Source: Coleofasciculus sp. LEGE 07092 | GTDB taxonomy: Bacteria; Cyanobacteriota; Cyanobacteriia; Cyanobacteriales; Coleofasciculaceae | Length of the DNA: 48,524 bases | Assembly: GCF_015207375.1 (NCBI RefSeq) | Contig: NZ_JADEWY010000040.1 | Location: 1-48,524 of the forward strand | Direction of reading: 5' to 3' | Part shown: positions 6,854-41,028 of the stretch, piece after piece | How positions within the stretch are numbered: the first letter of the stretch is position 1 | How the letters are laid out: each line of letters begins with the position of its first letter | Translations under genes and position numbers: made by a program | Notes under the pieces: model-generated | Databases searched by the model: none | Told to the model about the DNA's origin: nothing | What the model saw: only the letters and a program-made list of their open reading frames with translations

Positions 6854-7966
6854 ATGAATTTTGCACTAGGAAACCTGTCTTCCTTCCACTCGGAAGTTTT
6901 GCAGCAAACTCAGTTAGGTCAGCTATGTAGTCAAAATGAATTGTTTCAGGATCGCTACGAAATAATGCGAATGCTGGGTCGAGGCGGTTTTGGGGTGACA
7001 TTTTTGGCAAAAGACGTGAGTTTGCCAGGTCAGCCCTTGTGCGTGATCAAGCAGCTATGCCCTAAAGTTAGCGATCCGAATGCCTTAGCGAACGCCCGTA
7101 ACCGTTTTGAGCGGGAGGCAAAAATTCTGGGCAAACTGGGCAGCCACTCTCAGATTCCCATGCTGTTGAATTATTTCTCGATCAACGAGGAATTTTACCT
7201 AGTGCAAGAATATGTACGCGGTGCTACCTTGGCAAGGCTAGTCAGGCGCTGCGGTTGCTTGTCGGAAACAGGGGTCAGGCAGTTTCTGTGCGAAATACTA
7301 CCCCTGTTAGAATACATCCATCGGCATCAGGTTATTCATCGGGACATTAAGCCTCAAAACATTATTCGCTGTCAAGACGATGGCAGGCTGGTTCTCATCG
7401 ACTTTGGGGCGGTGAAAGAGCAACTGGCTCAAGCAAGCGATAGCAGCATGAAAATGCCTTCTACCCATTTCATCGGTACGGTAGGATTCGCCCCACCAGA
7501 GCAGTTTTCTCTGCGACCGGTGTTTGGCAGCGATATCTATGCCTTGGGTATCACTTGCTTTTTCTTACTGACAGGGAAAGCACCTCTAGATTTTGATAGC
7601 GATCGCCAAACGGGTGATATTTACTGGGAAAATCTCGTTCATTTGAGCAAACCATTTGCTCAAGTTTTGCGGAAGATGACGGAAGTTTCCCTATCGAAGC
7701 GCTATCAATCAGCCAGTCCGATTCTACAAGACCTCGGTTACACCTCACCTCGAGATAATTTAGGACAGTATCTGGTTGCTCGGCAGCAACAATCTCACAG
7801 TATTACGGTCAATGAGAGTGAGAGCAGTCGGAGTGGCTATCGTTCTCCCACCGCCAAAGCCGCGATCGCAATTCGAGGATGGAGACAGCGGATTGAACAA
7901 AAACAGCAGCGCCGTTACACCCCACCTAGTCAACGTCTTATCAGTTCATCGAACAATTCGGTTTAA
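6854..7966 (+). CDS. Serine/threonine protein kinase (Hanks type)
   Basis: A complete eukaryote-like kinase domain fills residues ~35-300: glycine loop GRGGFG (42-47), ATP-lysine in VIK (Lys66), catalytic loop HRDIKPQN (162-169), DFG (183-185) and an activation segment ending in APPEQ. The kinase should therefore be active. It is soluble, with no transmembrane segment. The ~70 C-terminal residues are polar and basic with no recognised domain, so there is no WD40, TPR or PASTA sensor region. Substrates are unknown. An inverted repeat (6739-6778) sits upstream and a heptamer array starts five bases after the stop. Confidence 0.93.
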   Translation: MNFALGNLSSFHSEVLQQTQLGQLCSQNELFQDRYEIMRMLGRGGFGVTFLAKDVSLPGQPLCVIKQLCPKVSDPNALANARNRFEREAKILGKLGSHSQIPMLLNYFSINEEFYLVQEYVRGATLARLVRRCGCLSETGVRQFLCEILPLLEYIHRHQVIHRDIKPQNIIRCQDDGRLVLIDFGAVKEQLAQASDSSMKMPSTHFIGTVGFAPPEQFSLRPVFGSDIYALGITCFFLLTGKAPLDFDSDRQTGDIYWENLVHLSKPFAQVLRKMTEVSLSKRYQSASPILQDLGYTSPRDNLGQYLVARQQQSHSITVNESESSRSGYRSPTAKAAIAIRGWRQRIEQKQQRRYTPPSQRLISSSNNSV

Positions 7967-7970
7967 AAAT

Positions 7971-8026
7971 GGGGAATAGGGAATAGGGAATAGGGAATGG
8001 GGAATGGGGAATGGGGAATGGGGAAT
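7971..8026. repeat. GGGAAT heptanucleotide array, 8 units, covering a start codon
   Basis: Eight seven-base units run head to tail: one GGGGAAT, three AGGGAAT, then four GGGGAAT. The last five junctions create ATG codons at 7997, 8004, 8011, 8018 and 8025. Because 7 is not a multiple of 3, only 7997 and 8018 are in frame with the downstream thioesterase. The G/A-rich units also resemble a Shine-Dalgarno sequence. Confidence 0.95.
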
Positions 8027-8455
8027 GAGGATAATTATTCTTTTATCTACGAGCGCACCGTTCGTTTTCAAGATACTGATGCCGCTGGCGTCGTCTATTT
8101 TGCCAACGTCTTGTCAATGTGCCACGAAGCCTACGAAGCGTCTCTAGCGGCATCGGGCATTGACCTGAAGTTATTTTTCAACAATCGGGCAGTTGCTATT
8201 CCTATCGTTCATACCAGCGTAGACTTTTTTTACCCACTATTTTGCGGCGATCGGGTGCTGATTCTCTTAACGCCCCAGCATCTTAGTGAAAGTAAGTTTG
8301 AGATTGTTTATAAACTGACTGCTGCTTCCCAGTCACATCAACAGCTAGCTAAGGCAGTAACTCGACACGTTTGCATTGAGCCAATGACTAGAACCAAAAC
8401 TCAGTTACCTGAGTCTGTCATGAAATGGCTGGGATGTTGGCGTGGCGATCGCTAG
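7997..8455 (+). CDS. 1,4-dihydroxy-2-naphthoyl-CoA hydrolase (4HBT hot-dog thioesterase)
   Basis: Cyanobacterial DHNA-CoA thioesterase (Slr0204 type) releases DHNA for phylloquinone, the photosystem I quinone. The hot-dog family signature [16 protein letters not shown] is at residues 24-39, with the likely catalytic Asp at 28, followed by [14 protein letters not shown]. The start is uncertain. ATG 7997 gives 152 residues and ATG 8018 gives 145; both lie in the heptamer array, and [10 protein letters not shown] is repeat-encoded. The conserved part begins only at about residue 16. The assignment among 4HBT thioesterases rests on family resemblance, not on neighbouring men genes, which are absent here. 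Confidence 0.85.
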
Positions 8456-8542
8456 TGCATAGAGGACATTGAGACAATCTTTATTGATTAGTTTTTCAAG
8501 CAAAACTAAAGACTATCTAAAATTCGATTTTGTCTCGGGATT

Positions 8543-8555
8543 GTGTAGTCTACAC
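8543..8555. promoter_or_regulatory. Short palindrome upstream of the phytochrome kinase
   Basis: GTGTAG-T-CTACAC is a perfect 13-base odd palindrome, 55-68 bases before the kinase start at 8611. The size and position fit an operator, but no regulator is known for it. Confidence 0.3.
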
Positions 8556-8610
8556 TACTAGTTAAGATTTTAATAAAAATAAATATTTTATTCTAGCAGA
8601 AAACTTCGAA

Positions 8611-10671
8611 ATGAGCCTGCCACCCACCAATAAAAACGCAATGGACATCCTGGCTTACGGAGGAGTGCTACATCGCATTACCACTCGCATCCGTCAGTCA
8701 CTAGAGTTACAGGAAATTTTATCAGCAACGGTTGCAGAAATTCGTTCGCTGTTGAAAACTGATCGGGTCAAAATTTACCGCTTTCACCCAGATGGCAACG
8801 GACAAGTTATTGCAGAATCCCTTGCCAAAAACCGCCTACCGTCTCTACTCGGATTCAACTTTCCCGCTGAAGACATTCCCCTTGAGACGCGACAGATGTA
8901 TATTAAAGCCCATCAACGCTCGATTGTTGACGTGGCGGCACAGCAAATCACCCTCAGTCGTATCGAGCATCCCTTCACAACCGGGGATCTGACTTTGGAA
9001 GATATTCACCAACAGCCCATTAGCGATATTCTCCAGCGTCCGGTAGACCCCTGCCACGTAAACTATCTAACGGGTATGGGGGTAATGTCATCTTTAGTGG
9101 TGCCGATTATTTACCAGCAGCAGCTTTGGGGTTTGCTAGTATCCCATCACGCCGAATCAGGAGGCTTTCAGGAAGAAGACTTGCAGCTTATCCAACTCGT
9201 AGCCGATCAATTATCGATCGCGATCGCTCAATCTGAACTGCTCAGTCAAACCCGCTCGCAAGTGCGGCAAGAAACTCTCATCAATCAGATTACCCCCCTG
9301 CTGCACTCGCCGCGCCCTATGCCGGAAATCTTGCAACTTGTTTTAGAACGAATCGTCAGAGCAGTTCAAGGTTCAGGTGGCAGACTTTACCTAGTGGCAA
9401 CTCCCCAACGGTTGTCGAGTCTTCATACCTGTGGGATTCAGCCCATATCGTCAGAGTCAGGGAAACCGGACTGGTTGGAAGAGTATTCCTTATGGCGGGA
9501 ACTGATGCAAACTCCAGCTTCACCGTCCCAATCAGAGGATATCTTCAGCTTACGAGCGATCGCAGACCTTTATCAAGACCCGCAACTAGCGCCTCTGACG
9601 GACGCTTTCCAAACCACTCCCATTCGGGGAATGCTAGTCATGCCCCTTGAGTACAGGCAGGAATCCTTAGGGTATCTAACCATTTTCCGGAACGCTATTG
9701 ATACTGAAACCCTCTGGGCTGGTTATTGGAATCGGGATCAGCGCCTGGAACGCCCCCGCGCCTCCTTCGAGGTTTGGCGAGAGCAAAAAAAGAATCAAGC
9801 CCCGGAATGGACGAGCGAAGAACTCGATTTGATTCAGTCGCTGGGAATTCACCTCGCTATGGCGATCGTACAAAATCAACTCTACCAATTAGAACTCTAC
9901 AATCACGAACTTTCCATCGCCCGTGTTGTCGCAGAGGAAGCCAGCCGCCTGAAATCTCACTTTTTAGCATCAACTAGCCACGAACTGCGAACTCCCCTTG
10001 CTTCAACTCTCAACTGCCTGCAAATTCTTGGAAAAGGCTTCTATAAAAGCGAGAACGATTTAAAAAAATACCTACAACTCGCCGAGCAATCTACAAAAAA
10101 TCTCGTTAGCATCATCAATGATGTTTTAGACATTGCTAAAATTGAGTCAGGTCGCATGACAGTCGAGTTAGAACCAGTTAGTCTCAAGCCCCTCCTCGAA
10201 GAACAACAAACTCTTTTTAGCGTTGAAATCGAGCAAAAAGGAATTTCCTTGATTAGTGAGTGTGAAGTTGATCGGGTTTGTGCCGATAAAGGAAAACTCA
10301 GACAGGTTCTAACGAACTTACTCTCTAATGCCTTGAAATTTACTGAAAGTGGTGAAGTGCGCATTCGGGCAAACAAACCTGCGGAGCGATCCGCCGTTGA
10401 AATTGTGGTGACAGACACGGGTATCGGTATTGAAATGATGAAGTCAGAACAGTTGCTAGAACCATTTGTGCAGGCAGACGGTTCGATCAAGCGGCGTTAC
10501 GGTGGCACCGGACTCGGTTTGGCAATCTGTAAGCGATTGGTAGAACTGATGGGGGGGCAAATTCGGTTATACAGCGCTGGAAAAAATCAGGGTACAACCG
10601 TAACCGTTACGTTGCCTTACCCCATCAACCAAGCTGAAGGCGAAGTTTGTTGCTATATTTCTGAGAGTTAA
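8611..10671 (+). CDS. PAS-less (knotless) phytochrome histidine kinase
   Basis: This 686-residue soluble kinase looks like a bilin photoreceptor without a PAS domain. The GAF domain (~20-210) has the phytochrome FPAEDIP motif (84-90) and a canonical chromophore pair Cys148-His149 followed by VNYLTGMGV. The next domain (~220-425) contains PRASF (382-386), the PRxSF tongue motif of PHY domains. HisKA has phospho-His457 (STSHELRTPL), and the ATPase has the N box (NLLSNALKF, ~570), DTGIGIE and GGTGLGLAI. The order GAF-PHY-kinase matches group II phytochromes. The response regulator gene follows 73 bases downstream and is the likely partner. Red/far-red sensing is inferred. Confidence 0.9.
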   Translation: MSLPPTNKNAMDILAYGGVLHRITTRIRQSLELQEILSATVAEIRSLLKTDRVKIYRFHPDGNGQVIAESLAKNRLPSLLGFNFPAEDIPLETRQMYIKAHQRSIVDVAAQQITLSRIEHPFTTGDLTLEDIHQQPISDILQRPVDPCHVNYLTGMGVMSSLVVPIIYQQQLWGLLVSHHAESGGFQEEDLQLIQLVADQLSIAIAQSELLSQTRSQVRQETLINQITPLLHSPRPMPEILQLVLERIVRAVQGSGGRLYLVATPQRLSSLHTCGIQPISSESGKPDWLEEYSLWRELMQTPASPSQSEDIFSLRAIADLYQDPQLAPLTDAFQTTPIRGMLVMPLEYRQESLGYLTIFRNAIDTETLWAGYWNRDQRLERPRASFEVWREQKKNQAPEWTSEELDLIQSLGIHLAMAIVQNQLYQLELYNHELSIARVVAEEASRLKSHFLASTSHELRTPLASTLNCLQILGKGFYKSENDLKKYLQLAEQSTKNLVSIINDVLDIAKIESGRMTVELEPVSLKPLLEEQQTLFSVEIEQKGISLISECEVDRVCADKGKLRQVLTNLLSNALKFTESGEVRIRANKPAERSAVEIVVTDTGIGIEMMKSEQLLEPFVQADGSIKRRYGGTGLGLAICKRLVELMGGQIRLYSAGKNQGTTVTVTLPYPINQAEGEVCCYISES

Positions 10672-33978: not shown

Positions 33979-35067
33979 ATGAAGACTCGGAAAACTTTGT
34001 TTACAGAACCATTCAGCCGGCGGCAAGGGCGTCCCCGCTTGGCTGTTACCCTGGGCGATCCGGCGGGAATAGGACCGGAGGTGGTACTCAAGGCGTTGGC
34101 AGATCCAGAAATCACTCAAGATGCTGATATAACGGTAATTGGCAGTCAGTGGCTCTTAGACGCTACTTACAGCCACCTGCGCCAAACCGTTGATGCTGAG
34201 GTTCTTGCCAAACCTGATCGCTTATCGGTTCTCGATGTTGAGTTAGAGGCATCGGAGCGGGGGCAAATTACCCCTGGTGCTGGCAGTGCGGTAAGTGGTG
34301 GGGCGAGTTTTGCTTACCTAGAACGTGCGATCGCTCAGACTCTAGCTGGTGAGTTTGATGGTATCGTTACAGCCCCCATTGCCAAGTCCTTGTGGAAAGC
34401 TGCTGGATATGATTATCCCGGTCAAACGGAAGTGCTGGCAAAGTATGCGGGGGTGGAGCGATTTGGGATGTTATTCGTCGCGCGATCGCCTCATACGGAT
34501 TGGTTGTTGCGCACTCTCTTAGCAACCACACATATTCCTCTACGTCAAGTCCCCGATACCCTGACTCCTGAATTGATGACAGCCAAACTGGACTTGTTAG
34601 TAGAATGCTTGCGGCTGGATTTTGGAATCGAAACGCCTCGAATTGCCATTTCTGGGTTAAATCCCCATAGTGGCGAACAAGGGCAACTAGGAGTTGAAGA
34701 ACAAAATTGGTTAATTCCCTGGCTGGAGCAGGAACGTCAGCACCGTTCTGGGTTGCAACTGGATGGAGTTGTGCCACCGGATACTCTTTGGGTGAAACCG
34801 GGTCAAGCTTGGTACGGTATTGATTCATCCCAGGCTCATGATGGTTATTTGGCTCTGTACCACGACCAAGGTTTAATTCCTGTCAAACTTATGGCGTTTG
34901 ACCGAGCGGTTAATACGACGATTGGTTTGCCGTTTGTGCGTACTTCCCCCGACCATGGTACAGCGTTTGATATTGCAGGTCAGGGGGTGGCAAATGCTAC
35001 GAGTATGAAAGCCGCGATTCAGCTAGGGGCTGAACTGGTGAATCAAAGGTTAAGCTGTCAGTCATGA
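33979..35067 (+). CDS. pdxA: 4-hydroxythreonine-4-phosphate dehydrogenase
   Basis: PdxA oxidises 4-phosphohydroxy-threonine in the DXP-dependent route to pyridoxal phosphate. The 362-residue protein has [18 protein letters not shown] at ~24-41, [22 protein letters not shown], the zinc-site histidines (TTHIPL and [10 protein letters not shown]) and [30 protein letters not shown] closes the active site. The N-terminal ~20 basic residues are an extension beyond the family's core. It is divergent from petM and has no other pdx gene nearby. Confidence 0.95.
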
Positions 35068-35193: not shown

Positions 35194-35814
35194 ATGCTCC
35201 TTACTCAACGTCGCGCTAACCGAGTTGTATTGCACAATATTAGTTGGCAACAATTTGAAAATTTATTAGTTGATTTGGGCGAAAGTCGTGCTGCTAGAGT
35301 TGCCTATGATGATGGAACGTTAGAAATCATGACTCCTTTACCCGAACATGAGTATTACAAAGAAACTATAAGCATTGTCATTCAAGATATTGCAGAAGTT
35401 TTAGACCGAGACTACGAAAGTTTAGGATCAACAACTTGGAAGCGGGAAATCAAGAAAGCTGGGGTAGAACCGGATAACTGTTTTTATTTTCAAAATGAGC
35501 CAAAAATTAGGGGCAAGTTAGACTACGATCTTAATCAAGACCCTCCTCCAGACTTAGTATTAGAAATTGATGTAACGAGCAAGTCTCTAAGTCGCTTTTC
35601 GATTTACGCTCGTTTAGGGGTACCTGAAATCTGGTGTTATGACTCGGGTGAACTGAAAGTTTACCAGTTACAGAATGAGGGATATATAGAAGTAGACACT
35701 AGTTTGGTATTTCCTTCGCTTCCCGTTCAAGAACTCCCCGCACTCATCGAACAATACCGTCCTCAAGGGAGACGAGCTATCCGCCGAGCAGTGAGAGAGT
35801 GGGCGAGGAGATAG
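35194..35814 (+). CDS. Uma2-family (DUF820) putative endonuclease
   Basis: The 206-residue protein belongs to the Uma2/DUF820 family, a PD-(D/E)XK-like nuclease fold hugely expanded in cyanobacteria. It shows VAYDDGTLEIMTPLPEHE near the N-terminus, PDLVLEID (acidic pair) and IYARLGVPEIWCYDSG. The usual E-V-x-SPS block here reads EIDVTSKS. Biological role is unsettled; some members are linked to mobile elements or defence. It lies at the left border of the accessory island, convergent with the next gene. Confidence 0.85.
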   Translation: MLLTQRRANRVVLHNISWQQFENLLVDLGESRAARVAYDDGTLEIMTPLPEHEYYKETISIVIQDIAEVLDRDYESLGSTTWKREIKKAGVEPDNCFYFQNEPKIRGKLDYDLNQDPPPDLVLEIDVTSKSLSRFSIYARLGVPEIWCYDSGELKVYQLQNEGYIEVDTSLVFPSLPVQELPALIEQYRPQGRRAIRRAVREWARR

Positions 35815-35876: not shown

Positions 35877-36497
35877 TTAAGCTGCTACTTTTTCATCGAG
35901 TTGCAATTCACACTGTCGGAAAATATAGTTAACAGCGGCAAATAGTTTATCGAGTTCCTGAATGCTATAAAGGGTAATATTTCTGGTAAAGGTATCAGTT
36001 TCTAGCTTGCCTAATTGCCAGCGATCGCCATTAGAAACAATGCCAAAAACAATCATTTGCGGGTTTTTATTCAGTCGCTGGGCGGCTATCATTTCTGCTA
36101 AACACTGACCCCACCCTTCTTCAAATTTATCTTGTTTGGCTTCGACTAAAAGTAAATAGGGCTTATCAAAGACAACTTTTCCCAAAGGAGATCGTTTCGC
36201 CAAGATATATTCGGGAAACCCTGAAAGATTTTCATCATAGGTGAGTGATTCGTGACTCCACAACAGGAAATTGCTGCGATAGCACTTCCAGACTTCTTTC
36301 AAGACGGGATAAATTAAATTTTCGCAAATAGCAAATTCTGAGTTATCAACGACTCCTTCCCGCATGACGGTTTGTAAGTCTTCTCGGAAGTAGTCGGGGA
36401 TGTTAAATTCTATTTCACCGATGAAATTTGCTTCGGTGTATTTCGTCTGAAATTCTTTGACAACTACACCGATGCTCTTATAACTACTGAAAGCCAT
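35877..36497 (-). CDS. PD-(D/E)XK-like hypothetical protein
   Basis: The 206-residue protein has a restriction-nuclease-like pattern. An N-terminal helical part with ICENLIYPVLKEVW precedes LWSHESLTYDENLSGFPEYIL (candidate acidic residue), and YLLLVEAKQDKFEEGWGQCLAEMIAAQ gives an E-x-K core with a following Gln. VFGIVSNGDRWQLGKL completes a fold like the N-terminal domains of type I restriction subunits. No methylase or specificity gene is beside it. It lies 129 bases downstream of the RT gene on the same strand and may be part of that operon. Nuclease activity is inferred, not shown. Confidence 0.65.
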   Translation of the reverse strand: MAFSSYKSIGVVVKEFQTKYTEANFIGEIEFNIPDYFREDLQTVMREGVVDNSEFAICENLIYPVLKEVWKCYRSNFLLWSHESLTYDENLSGFPEYILAKRSPLGKVVFDKPYLLLVEAKQDKFEEGWGQCLAEMIAAQRLNKNPQMIVFGIVSNGDRWQLGKLETDTFTRNITLYSIQELDKLFAAVNYIFRQCELQLDEKVAA

Positions 36498-36626: not shown

Positions 36627-37832
36627 TCAAGGTGATCCTTCTTCACTATCTACTGGACTTTGACCACTGTAGTAATTTTCTCGAAGAATTTTAGGTTCTG
36701 GTAGATCAAATATCTCAGATGGGCTACCTTGTAGAGCAAGATTTCCTGCGTCAATAAGCATGGGATCATTTTGATTGACAGAAAATTCTTGCACAGCACT
36801 TGGCTCAAACTGTCCCAATATCAAAAGATAGTTCTTCTTCAATCTACTTGGTGGTGAAGGCTCAGAGCGAAGAGCTTTTTTAACAGCTTCAATATGACGA
36901 TTTTGTTTAAAGTCGTTGTACTTATGTCCCAAATATAACCAAGTTTCAGTTGCCATAAGTCTTTCAGTTATACTAACTGAGCTATCTGAGATGGTCGCAA
37001 ATCCAACAATTAGCTCCCACTCTTGAGCATCGACATTAGGAAGGAACCGCATCGCTCTAATTGTGATAGCTTTGAGATATTCAGCAGACTGATCAAGATT
37101 TTGATAGTGTTTTAATAAGGCTCTAATTTCGGTATGATAGCCTTGGCGCGCTAAATTCTCCAATACATTTATGGGATCGCGGATGATCCAAAAAGCTTTA
37201 CGCAAAATTTCCATTAGGGCTTGAAGTATATCCTCAAGTCCTAAAACAGAAAGTCTGTAGAGGGCAAAGCGGATATCTCTTTGCAGCTTGCGTACTTCAC
37301 TTGGCTTGCTACCGTTTGATTCTTGTAGCTCTCGCCAACTATTTTGGAATAGCTCAACTAGTTCTTTTCGTAAGTCATTTCTATTTTCGTTCCAGATGTT
37401 ATTTGAGCTAATAAAGGACACAGCCCATTGGTCAATTGCATCAGATCTATCGCTGTTTGGTGGTTGTGTAGATTTTAATTCTCCCTCTAGTCCCAAAACT
37501 TCTTTTTGTTTTGCCAAGTCTCTATCACGACTTTTTAAGCTGAATAGATACTTATATATTCTGCGACTGAGTTCCGTTTTATGTGTATAAATTTTTATTG
37601 CCATTAAGCAATTTTGATAACGTTCAATGTTATGCCACCAGAGTTTGTCATTATGGTAAGAACTTGCAAAAATAGCACGGTGTTCTGAGTTCAGAATCCA
37701 AAGTTGATTTACAACACTGTCAAAGCGATCGCTTAATCTCTCCAGATATTCATCCTCATCAGATTGCTCTAAAAATAAAGATACCTCATAAATTTTTTCT
37801 GTTTTTTTCTCATTGATGTTTAGACCTAGCTT
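36627..37832 (-). pseudogene. C-terminal part of the interrupted methyltransferase-RT protein
   Basis: This continues the RT frame after the TAA at 37835-37833, with 401 further sense codons and no frame change. The first residues, KLGLNINEKKTEKI, are the expected RT motif after the palm (LxKLGLxLNxxKT), so the stop lies inside one original protein. The rest is helical and charged, with HEAT-like stretches (~LARQGYHTEIRALLKHYQNL, SITERLMATETWLYLG), and I recognise no catalytic motif. Only one ATG (37604) occurs near the start of this part, without a ribosome binding site, so separate translation of the whole segment is unlikely. See the entry at 37833-39692. Confidence 0.8.
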
Positions 37833-39692
37833 TTATAATTCATTTCTTAAAATATTTTCTATCTCATCCATATCGTCAGAATTTGGAATGATTAGAATCA
37901 TGTCATCTACATAGCGATGAAGCTCAACTCCCCACTCGTTACCACTTCCAAATTTTGCATCTATTGAAGTTAAATATATATTTGCATAGAAGCCTGAGCC
38001 AATGCCTCCCTGTGTTATGCCCTGACCCAAATCATGTTCATCAATATCTTTAGAAAGTAATAGTCGAATTAGCCAGCGTATACGTTGACTAACTGTTAAT
38101 TCTTTAGAAAGACCTTCATAGAGCTGATCCTGAACAATTTTTGTATAGAATGATTCAATATCTACTTTCAATATTGTACCGTTAGGGTAGTTGCTAGCAC
38201 TATGCCGTGCCTTCTTCATGTAATAGCAATAGGCTTTAAACCAATACTCATAAAGATATTCTGTATCTCTATGTCCATATTTTCTAGAAATTCTATATGC
38301 ATAGCTACTACCTCTCAACTGAGAAGCCTTATCACCCAATCTCTGAATAATTGCCACTGACAAAATCTCTTCTTCAAGACGTGAAAGTCCTTTAGGGCGA
38401 GAAACCGTTAAGTTCTTAGGTACTTTATACGAAAGTCTTTCATCTGTTAAGGCAACATCTTTAGCATAAGCACACAGTTGTTCCCGTAATCCTTCAAGCC
38501 TTGCATCACGATTTAGCTCAAACAGACGCATTTCAGTCTCATCGAATAATGCCTCTCTTAAAAGGTTGTTGCGTGCTCTTGCCCAAGCCAAACTAAGATT
38601 ATCGAGACTAATAACGCTATTCCAATCCTGATCCTCTGCTAAATCAGCACTCCATACTGTCTGAAAATCAGCATAAAATTTTATGGGATCACCAGTTTTA
38701 TTCCTATTTTTATCTTTCCAATAACTGCTATTCGGATTTTTAAAAAATATTTCATGATTGCCATCATTTATTTGTTCAATTATATGGCGCTTTTCTATTA
38801 CATTTTTTAGAGTATTAGCCATTTCCCTGACTCGTTGCTCCAGAGTTATTTGACTATTAGTATTAATTTGAACATATTTTTCTATATTTTTAGTTGCAAT
38901 AGTCAAGATATGCATTGTATCAACTGGCACATCTTCAATTATCTGTTTATAAGCATGAGCCTCGGCATTACCAAATTCCTCAGGAACCTCCGTAAGAAAA
39001 TCACATATTTCAGGATCGATTTTCATCAGTTCATTATATTCTTCTTCTTGATTTCTAAAACCTTGACTAAATGGAGAAATGACATTTAATTGAATTGTCA
39101 AAATATTTGAAAGACAAGGAATATGAAAAGTATTAAGTTCTTTTTTGAGGTTTTGAACAATTCCAAGTGTGGCTTCTGGAAAACCACTCTTTACACATAC
39201 GAATTCTAACCCTATTTTATCTACGACAGAAGTTTTCAATTTCGTCATGAGTTGCTTGTAAAGAAGAATTGAGAATTTATTGGGATCTACACCAATAGCA
39301 AAAATATTAATGTCATTTGAAATTTTTCCCTTTTCTTTCAAGATAAGTGCTGCCTCTATTACAGCAGCAGTACCAGCTCCTGCACCACATCCAATATCTA
39401 AAATGCAAATTCTTTGCTTATGCCTAAGCCAGCTTATTAAGCTATCTTCCCTAACAACATTTTCTAAAATGTGTGCAGCTTTAAAGTAGTGTGCAGGGAA
39501 AAGATGGTAGTACTGAAAAGCTACACTCTTTAGATCTTCACCTTGCAGTATCTTTTGCCACTTTTTTCGAGGATCTATTGATTTATAGCCTTTGGCTATA
39601 TCAACACTATCAAGCCAATGGTGTACAGCAGTATAGGCATCTGCGACAAGAGGATGAAAACAGCGATATATGGGTGGCGTATCTTCATTCAC
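37833..39692 (-). CDS. Methyltransferase-like / reverse transcriptase fusion, ended by an in-frame TAA
   Basis: Translation from GTG 39692 (AAGGA eight bases upstream) gives 619 residues. Residues ~95-270 form a class I SAM-methyltransferase-like domain (DIGCGAGAGT 99-108; AIGVDPN 132-138). The RT follows: RPKGLSRLEEEILSVAIIQ (~432), SYAYRIS (463-469), catalytic Asp511 in VDIESFY, QGGIGSGFYANIYL (561-574) and YVDD (594-597). The frame ends 22 residues after YVDD at a TAA and continues in frame to 36627, giving about 1,020 codons in all. The GTG overlaps the helicase stop by eight bases. I know no named retron, group II intron or DRT type with this architecture. Confidence 0.85.
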   Translation of the reverse strand: MNEDTPPIYRCFHPLVADAYTAVHHWLDSVDIAKGYKSIDPRKKWQKILQGEDLKSVAFQYYHLFPAHYFKAAHILENVVREDSLISWLRHKQRICILDIGCGAGAGTAAVIEAALILKEKGKISNDINIFAIGVDPNKFSILLYKQLMTKLKTSVVDKIGLEFVCVKSGFPEATLGIVQNLKKELNTFHIPCLSNILTIQLNVISPFSQGFRNQEEEYNELMKIDPEICDFLTEVPEEFGNAEAHAYKQIIEDVPVDTMHILTIATKNIEKYVQINTNSQITLEQRVREMANTLKNVIEKRHIIEQINDGNHEIFFKNPNSSYWKDKNRNKTGDPIKFYADFQTVWSADLAEDQDWNSVISLDNLSLAWARARNNLLREALFDETEMRLFELNRDARLEGLREQLCAYAKDVALTDERLSYKVPKNLTVSRPKGLSRLEEEILSVAIIQRLGDKASQLRGSSYAYRISRKYGHRDTEYLYEYWFKAYCYYMKKARHSASNYPNGTILKVDIESFYTKIVQDQLYEGLSKELTVSQRIRWLIRLLLSKDIDEHDLGQGITQGGIGSGFYANIYLTSIDAKFGSGNEWGVELHRYVDDMILIIPNSDDMDEIENILRNEL

Positions 39693-39975
39693 TGATATAT
39701 TCCTTAGGTATTTCGTTAATAAATTTACCGGGAGATTTTGAGTAACCCCGGAAATCTCTTGAATAAGCTGAAATAAATAACCTTTGCTTTGCCCTCGTCA
39801 TTGCGACATAAAACAACCGCCTTTCCTCCTCTAGCTTATTGTCACGAACACTGAAAAAACTAGGAAACTCATCTTCCGTAGCACCCGCGATAAAAACTGC
39901 GTCAAATTCCAAACCCTTGGACTGATGAATAGTAATAATCGGAACCTGGTTGTCATCTAGAGAGACTTGATCCAA
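39685..39975 (-). pseudogene. UvrD-like helicase, C-terminal fragment
   Basis: This frame carries SF1 helicase motif V (ITIHQSKGLEFDAVFIAG) and motif VI (EEERRLFYVAMTRAKQRLFI), followed by a short C-terminal end. It is in a different frame from the N-terminal fragment at 39957-40661. Readable sequence continues a few codons upstream of the TTG at 39975 (QPKN), so the break lies at about 39985-39990. It has no plausible start of its own. The stop overlaps the RT gene's GTG by eight bases, which shows that the intact helicase was translationally coupled to the RT protein. Confidence 0.85.
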
Positions 39976-40661
39976 GTTTTTGGGCTGTACTCGGAAAGAT
40001 GAGTATCTTGAACCTCATCAACTTGGACAAAATCGAACTTTTTCGCCCAACGTTGGCTAATCTCCGGTTCTTGATGCAACATTGCCCGAACATAAAAAAG
40101 TAAATCCCCAAAGTCTAGAACATGGCGTTTTTGCAGAATGGCTTGATAGTGAGCAGCACGTCTAGCCCAATCTGTATCTAGTGTTGTATACAGTTCTGCG
40201 AGGGAATTACTAAGAGATAACTGAAAATTACTAGCTTTAGTTTTGCAGTTAGCCAGCTCAAAGAATAACTGCCCAGCCTCTTTATCAGTCGAAAAACTAA
40301 AGACTTCTTTGATTAGTTCAATGCAATCAGCATCATCATAAATCACAAAATCTGCTGGTAAACCAAGCTGACTAGCCTCTGTCCGCAGCATCGAGGCACA
40401 TAAACCGTGGAATGTTTTAATAGTGAGATAGGACAACTGCTCTCGACAGTACTGAGATAAGCGATCGCTCATCTCCTGAGAAGCTCGGTTCGTAAATGTT
40501 AGGCAAAGAATTCTTTGAGGAGAAATACCTCTCTTCATGGCACGAAGAACTCGCTCGGCTAAAACGCGAGTCTTACCCGTACCAACTGGAGCAAGGACTA
40601 AAATTGCACCTTGGGTATCCCTCGCGATCGCACTCTGTTGAGAGTTAAGTTCGTTTTCCAT
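39957..40661 (-). pseudogene. UvrD-like helicase, N-terminal fragment
   Basis: From ATG 40661 this frame has the Q motif (LNSQQSAI), Walker A (APVGTGKT, residues 24-31), motif Ia (ILCLTFTNRASQEM), TIKTFHGLCA and motif II (VQVDEVQD). It then turns into non-family sequence (SPKTWIKSL) and stops. Motifs III and IV, with the whole 2B/2A region between motif II and motif V, are missing, a loss of several hundred codons. The C-terminal motifs follow in another frame at once. An internal deletion plus frameshift explains this. The protein cannot be an active helicase. Confidence 0.88.
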
Positions 40662-40921: not shown

Positions 40922-41028
40922 TATAGTGTTTCCTAGTCTTGTGAGGTACGTCCTTGAGCTTCAAGTCCCCCTTTATAAGGGGGATTTAGGGGGTAATATT
41001 ACACCTCACATGACAGAGAACCGCTATA
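40922..41028. repeat. MITE-like element with TATAG...GTGAGGT terminal inverted repeats
   Basis: The left end (40922-40949: TATAGTGTTTCC...TTGTGAGGTA) and the right end (41000-41028, ending ACCTCACATGACAGAG...CTATA) are imperfect inverse complements. A core GTCCCCCTT-tat-AAGGGGGAT hairpin lies inside. A left-end-only relative occurs at 47418-47445. It is 107 bp with no coding capacity. Confidence 0.75.

Follow-up and report, generated by a model that had tools for sequence, protein, structure and literature searches.

The window analysed here, a stretch of 48,524 nucleotides (nt) from Coleofasciculus sp. LEGE 07092 (contig NZ_JADEWY010000040.1), carries on its minus strand a reverse transcriptase (RT) gene and, directly upstream of it, the remnants of a helicase gene. 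We conclude that this pair is quite probably a recently decayed copy of an operon of the UG35 class of RTs, which in its intact form is a candidate anti-phage system. The copy in the window itself is very likely non-functional.

The class of the RT is almost certain. When the one TAA that interrupts the frame is read as Q, a protein of 1021 amino acids (aa) is obtained, and this read-through protein matches the PADLOC model RT_UG35 with 1331.5 bits over residues 7-1018 (positions 2-935 of 938 in the profile). The runner-up class, RT_UG34, reaches 96.8 bits, and as a sequence comparison the UG35 match is far beyond chance. The motifs DIGCGAGAG, GVDPN, VDIESFY, QGGIGSGFYANIYL, YVDD and KLGLNINEKKT are all read in a single minus-strand frame from 39692 to 36627, and the palm is recognised by the Pfam family RVT_1 (E value 8.2e-17). 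Thus, the initial annotation of this DNA was correct in placing a methyltransferase-like domain, an RT palm and a helical tail in one frame, but it treated that frame as one uninterrupted gene, and here it does not hold. The first open reading frame (ORF) ends after 619 aa, and what follows the TAA is a 3' remnant; the earlier wording "1-619 plus the continuation" only hinted at this. Codon 620 is a sense codon in the other 19 of the 20 aligned RT proteins, while the catalytic aspartates of motif A and of the xxDD motif are kept in all 20. The C-terminal third is mostly helical in a low-confidence model of the intact relative L006 (Nostoc sp. KVJ20), and in the distant relative L023 a HEAT_2 match was obtained (E 7.6e-5, under the curated cut-off). 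The source genome holds one UG35 copy, whose RT ORF is not intact.

The helicase gene survives as two fragments in different frames. The N-terminal fragment (P0004, 234 aa) and the C-terminal fragment (P0005, 96 aa, 95.2 bits) cover the two ends of the 675 positions of the PADLOC model RTasHel (Table 1). Compared with the intact helicase of L006, which scores 1099.5 bits with the same model, the window keeps residues 4-227 and 717-817, and 489 residues are gone; the junction of this internal deletion lies near 39987-39996. What has been preserved is the contact between the genes. Helicase and RT overlap by 4-11 nt in all 10 loci of the window's type for which both boundaries are readable, the window included, and a tabulation of upstream genes finds the UvrD helicase with this overlap in the intact relatives. 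The proposal of a coupled superfamily 1 (SF1) helicase is therefore borne out for the overlap and for the association in relatives, but not for an intact helicase in the window.

Table 1. Features of the UG35-type operon remnant in the window
Feature	Positions	Strand	Basis or remark
UG35-type RT gene	36627..39692	minus	GTG start at 39692, TGA end; interrupted by one in-frame stop
N-terminal class I methyltransferase-like domain, residues 1-329	38706..39692	minus	motif I D-x-G-x-G-x-G and acidic residue after strand 2; models of the L006 relative
RT palm, residues 500-635	37788..38195	minus	RVT_1 match
In-frame TAA, codon 620	37833..37835	minus	between YVDD and the KLGLNIN stretch
C-terminal helical domain, severed by the stop	36630..37787	minus	helices in low-confidence model of the L006 relative
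N-terminal SF1 helicase remnant, Walker A to motif II	39957..40661	minus	UvrD-helicase E 1.7e-50; RTasHel 3-210, 354.5 bits
C-terminal helicase remnant, motifs V and VI, other frame	39685..39996	minus	UvrD_C E 6.7e-33; RTasHel 601-675
Helicase stop / RT start overlap, 8 nt	39685..39692	minus	helicase-frame stop and GTG start of the RT

The intact helicase is a composite protein. In P0006 (819 aa) the UvrD-helicase and UvrD_C matches are accompanied by an RNase_T domain (E 2.5e-22; DEDDh in PADLOC), which is inserted in UvrD_C at residues 465-619. Relative to the RTasHel profile, which spans the intact helicase, the exonuclease is an insertion. Across 17 of 17 intact helicases there is no difference in Walker A, in motif II or in the five exonuclease residues D468, E470, D553, H606 and D611; helicases that lie beside a UG14 RT or beside restriction-modification genes are among the 17.

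Relatives of the operon are scattered. A scan of bacterial and archaeal genomes with exact peptide patterns, which favour close relatives, gave nine named loci, all of them cyanobacterial. The UG35 model (E up to 1e-60) matched in 7 of 386 genomes across the phylum, in 24 of 388 genomes of the order and in 4 of 20 of the family, samples that overlap and in which several matches are the same records as the nine loci; none of 14 control genomes matched. Since sampling with the model covered the window's own phylum, order and family plus these controls, confinement to cyanobacteria cannot be claimed. In group A, the window's type, the helicase comes first and the overlapping RT second. Group B has the RT first, with an extra N-terminal part, and the helicase second, and in group C an RT without a helicase of this family stands head-to-head with a DUF1848 gene. 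The outlier L023 (G187) has neither helicase nor DUF1848 beside its RT. The N-terminal extension of the one group B RT scanned, L020, has a ribbon-helix-helix match (FitA-like antitoxin; 8307-8690), and the other group B proteins are of similar length. Two genes next to the L023 RT (6960-8328) have weak matches, both under the curated cut-offs: one is DEDD-exonuclease-like (RNase_H_2, 0.00075), and the other, which is divergent, is 2-oxoglutarate (2OG)-Fe(II)-oxygenase-like (2OG-FeII_Oxy_2, 0.0022). No conserved RNA was found in 600 nt on each side of eight group A loci (for L001, 179 nt upstream only); similarity past the coding ends was seen only between close relatives, a result with which an RNA of variable sequence is still compatible. 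Rfam searches of nine loci returned signal recognition particle RNA and a CRISPR repeat in one of them (L053) and nothing else.

The genes beside the RT change from genome to genome. An intact helicase is adjacent in 10 of the 24 UG35 genomes of the order (G360, G396, G539, G262, G368, G064, G665, G469, G382, G633), and in G392 it is split across two contig ends. Helicase remnants stand beside the RT in three genomes (G000, which is the window's, G611 and G612), G596 has a broken helicase start on a short contig of 3.2 kb, and G503 has no helicase within the roughly 1050 nt present upstream. A DUF1848 gene is the neighbour in seven genomes (G607, G649, G540, G457, G597, G638, G494), and one genome of the 24 (G187) has neither partner. 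DUF1848 occurs in 18 of the 388 genomes, with seven copies 67-273 nt from a UG35 RT and an eighth (G651) beside an RT truncated at a contig end. PADLOC already has the model RTasDUF1848, so the association was known before. The helicase (E up to 1e-200) is found in 19 of the 388 genomes: the 10 with an adjacent UG35 RT, G392, and eight without a UG35 RT. In G615 it precedes a UG14 RT (688.8 bits). In three genomes of one genus (G127, G072, G616) it follows, on the same strand, genes for a HindVP-type restriction enzyme and a C5-cytosine methyltransferase (L070 5802-10435, L071 5617-10205, L073 4859-9423); these were identified by Pfam and PADLOC scans in G127 (L070) and labelled by eye in the other two. 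PADLOC counts both the UG14 RT and the restriction-modification pair as defence genes. The G155 helicase starts at a contig end, that of G399 lies near Uma2 and HSDR_N genes, and those of G621 and G328 stand alone. The loci L068, L069 and L001 have about 95% identical helicase DNA and one flank in common, alongside a UG14 RT, no RT and a UG35 RT, respectively. L068 (5413-9539) and L069 (3505-5979), from the same genus and with shared flanks, thus differ in the UG14 RT downstream of a near-identical helicase.

Exchange is also seen within the RT gene. L007 and L018 are about 97% identical upstream and through the helicase, and in the RT gene identity falls to 48-70% per 100 nt in two blocks, with a patch of 94-98% between them and a last stretch of mostly 88-97%. 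In this mosaic allele (L007 7623-10685 against L018) the methyltransferase and RT blocks appear replaced, and the linker and the C-terminus kept. The methyltransferase part of L018 is nearest to the window (72%; 47% to L007), its linker to L007 (92%), its RT part to L005 (75%; 47% to L007) and its C-terminus to L009 (88%). A clade of L007, L009 and L018 is rejected for the methyltransferase part (p 1.5e-5), not rejected for the RT part (p 0.19) and present for the C-terminus; because this group was chosen once the mosaic was already known, the p values are too favourable. For the RT part, an exchange is suggested by identity, 47% against flanks of about 97%.

Decay is frequent. Stops or frame changes disrupt the RT gene in 7 of the 24 genomes (G000, G612, G665, G638, G494, G596, G457), although some of these breaks may be sequencing errors, and the G597 RT is cut by contig ends. 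Among the nine named loci, an interruption follows residue 93 in L004, and L008 retains residues 692-1020 only. In a test of the idea that the exonuclease restrains the RT, the RT proved broken in three of the five genomes with a lost or broken helicase (G000, G612, G596; intact in G611 and G503) and in one of 11 with an intact helicase (G665), a difference that is not significant (one-sided hypergeometric 0.063; 16 genomes, with the seven DUF1848 genomes and the outlier G187 left out and G392 counted as intact). Three of the seven genomes of the DUF1848 group (G638, G494, G457) have a broken RT beside an intact DUF1848 gene.

A role of UG35 in defence seems likely to us because the helicase also adjoins a UG14 RT and a restriction-modification pair, because an RT allele is mosaic, and because the spread is patchy (24 of 388 genomes, with seven RTs broken). 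Several points weigh against the overall explanation. A literature search that did not reach the study defining the UG classes found no paper on UG35 as an RT class, and no defence assay or other experiment on it. No match was obtained in the phage collection, the plasmid collection or viral_contigs, and around the window locus there is no defence cluster beyond Uma2- and PD-(D/E)XK-like neighbours. The RT is intact without an intact helicase in L002/G503 and L005/G611, which speaks against the view that the RT must always be held in check by the helicase. The full-length model of L006 is poor (mean pLDDT 49.5). Finally, the TAA, seen in one assembly, could be an assembly error.

The strongest competitor, which we nevertheless regard as unlikely, is that UG35 is an RT of DNA repair or the damage response rather than of phage defence. 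Its partners would suit such a role: either the UvrD/DEDDh helicase-exonuclease or DUF1848, with a divergent 2OG-Fe(II)-oxygenase-like gene (0.0022) in the one outlier. DUF1848 stands head-to-head with the RT in seven of seven helicase-less loci of its clade, and its C-terminus has a CxxxCxxC stretch like that of radical-SAM enzymes, which would link it to photoproduct lyases. The patchy spread, the frequent loss and the mosaic alleles, however, are more like those of defence loci, and the helicase is found with a restriction-modification pair and a UG14 RT as well. There is a precedent for repair, since a group II intron-like RT is reported to have a repair role (PMC12337344).

It is improbable that the locus is still functional, with the TAA read through or an assembly error and the helicase fragments a natural short form. 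One interruption in 1021 codons and intact RT catalytic motifs would fit this, but motifs III and IV and the exonuclease, all kept in 17 of 17 intact relatives, are absent from the frame-shifted helicase. Two independent lesions in adjoining genes suit decay better than two errors, and other copies are broken at other sites.

That the operon is a new, undescribed RT system, as the initial annotation had it, can hardly be maintained: the literature search found no paper treating UG35 as an RT class, but RT_UG35, RTasHel and RTasDUF1848 are already catalogued in PADLOC as models for the RT, the helicase and the alternative partner, so that homologs with the same architecture fall in a described class. 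The statement that no named type could be matched has to be replaced by these two names, RT_UG35 and RTasHel, whereas the assignment to the DRT world was right, PADLOC labelling both genes "DRT". The suggested comparison with hidden Markov models of DRT/UG classes, retrons and group II introns thus leads to a full-length match with the existing UG35, with the retron and intron cut-offs missed. A retron (St85 RT, 47.7 bits against a curated cut-off of 235) and a group II intron RT (maturase RT, 66.9 bits against 300) were rejected, and the window has no Rfam match. Gabija was set aside as well, GajB reaching 139.6 bits on the N-terminal helicase fragment against 354.5 for RTasHel. An undescribed RT class is ruled out by the RT_UG35 match.

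The N-terminal domain appears to have the class I fold of S-adenosylmethionine (SAM) methyltransferases. D99, G101, G105 and D136 are invariant in 22 of 22 aligned domains; G103 is kept in 17 of 22, its position being A or V in five group B members. No NPPY-type motif after strand 4 is conserved in the alignment, and a classical base N-methyltransferase is therefore unlikely. Strands and helices alternate over residues 91-190 of the full-length L006 model, where the block means are 77-85, and modelled alone the domain has a pLDDT of 65 and a pTM of 0.71. These models match SAM methyltransferases, in agreement with the Rossmann-like fold predicted earlier. Re-alignment with VIA-align ranks METTL17/Rsm22, an assembly factor of the mitoribosomal small subunit, first: Z 12.3-14.5 against at most 9.9 for other chains with the domain model, and 11.9-13.4 against 11.9 with the full-length model, both models being of modest confidence. 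The titles of structures 8om2 and 9hny name METTL17; the 8cs and 8d8 chains are presumably METTL17/Rsm22 too. This clear first rank is given by the VIA-align re-alignment only. Foldseek gave low TM-scores for the domain model, with no match reaching E 0.001, and many non-methyltransferases in its top region (NADP-binding folds such as ferredoxin reductase and glucose-6-phosphate dehydrogenase). Membership in Rsm22 by sequence is unsupported. For 22 members, at E up to 10, the Pfam family Rsm22 was absent among the best 25 of 34 matched families. The hhalign probabilities are 83.9 for ordinary methyltransferases (72 columns), 34.7 for Rsm22 (173 columns) and 0.6 for C5 methyltransferases, and in a PDB sequence search the best match was AprA methyltransferase 1 (E 0.00061), with no Rsm22/METTL17 chain among the 18 matches listed. 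We claim the class I fold and not kinship with Rsm22, because the model alignments lean towards METTL17/Rsm22 but sequence profiles favour ordinary methyltransferases; METTL17/Rsm22 is the nearest match by predicted structure only.

In the intact relatives, the first gene encodes a UvrD-type SF1 helicase whose C-terminal half contains an inserted DEDDh 3'-5' exonuclease, and the gene translationally coupled to it supplies the methyltransferase-like domain, the RT and the helical tail. Together they would most likely work as an anti-phage module. The RT would make DNA, possibly protein-primed as reported for other UG/Abi RTs, and the N-terminal domain could serve as a sensor or effector by binding SAM or a similar ligand. 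The helicase-exonuclease may act on 3' DNA ends, either checking the RT product until infection disturbs it or degrading invader DNA. We infer both the DNA product and the order of events, and consider an RT restrained by the exonuclease a tentative, rather doubtful idea. DNA synthesis by class 3 UG/Abi enzymes is protein-primed and template-free, and these enzymes require RT as well as effector activity (PMC13275509); DRT10 makes repeats templated by a non-coding RNA (PMC12632851). Still more speculative, and a long shot, is the idea that the Rsm22/METTL17-like domain of UG35 and UG25 couples the synthesis of DNA to the ribosome or to its RNA, for example by sensing phage takeover of translation, that the swappable helicase-exonuclease restrains or executes the response, and that domain and RT are exchanged as blocks in an arms race. 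Joint action of helicase, methyltransferase and RT, as proposed earlier, is not supported for this genome, in which RT and helicase are both broken.

Around the decayed operon, a segment of about 107 nt (40922-41028), situated upstream of what remains of the helicase, has many copies of 75-91% identity in its own genome and in relatives, and is therefore a dispersed repeat. Downstream of the RT lie a PD-(D/E)XK-like gene (35877-36497, minus) and an Uma2-like gene (35194-35814, plus), whose DNA has many relatives across the genomes of the family, so that they are probably ordinary neighbours. A long antisense ORF (34367-34828, minus, noted together with 35194-35814, plus) opposite a pdxA-like coding sequence (33979-35067, labelled by eye) is most likely a mechanical shadow ORF.

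The window is a degraded member of a known candidate defence class, and it is the family that deserves attention rather than this copy, which carries little weight other than showing how readily such operons decay. What the analysis brings out is the DEDDh insertion, the methyltransferase-like fold, the pairing of one RT group with the likewise catalogued DUF1848, the UG14 and restriction-modification neighbours of the helicase and the mosaic RT allele. The comparison makes UG35 testable, through intact cyanobacterial operons and the catalytic residues of the methyltransferase-like, RT, helicase and exonuclease parts. It also offers natural partner swaps around a near-same helicase-exonuclease, with UG35 RT, UG14 RT, restriction-modification or none. 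If the helicase-exonuclease does work with both RTs and restriction enzymes, it would be a shared effector or regulator and not an RT-specific helper.

Among known systems, Gabija shares the UvrD-type SF1 fold of GajB, and GajB models match the window fragments. However, the helicase of UG35 relatives has an exonuclease insertion and adjoins an RT, and no GajA-like partner was recognised among the genes read by eye, no model search for GajA having been made. Class 3 UG/Abi RTs such as DRT1 likewise combine an extra enzyme-like domain on the RT chain with a helical repeat region, but according to PMC13275509 it is a nitrilase or phosphohydrolase that defines class 3, while the UG35 domain is methyltransferase-like and N-terminal. 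The N-terminal region of RT_UG25 (PDLC03763) is similar to the UG35 methyltransferase-like domain (5e-13), and residues 27-997 of the L023 RT can be aligned with the UG25 profile. Nevertheless, L023 scores 190.8 bits with UG25 against 1013.7 with UG35, and UG25 is outside the best 25 matches of the window protein. From the catalogued pair RT_UG35 (PDLC03774) and RTasHel (PDLC03802) the window copy differs by the stop in the RT and by the internal deletion and frame shift in the helicase; it agrees with the pair in the full-length RT match, the helicase family and the operon of its intact relatives.

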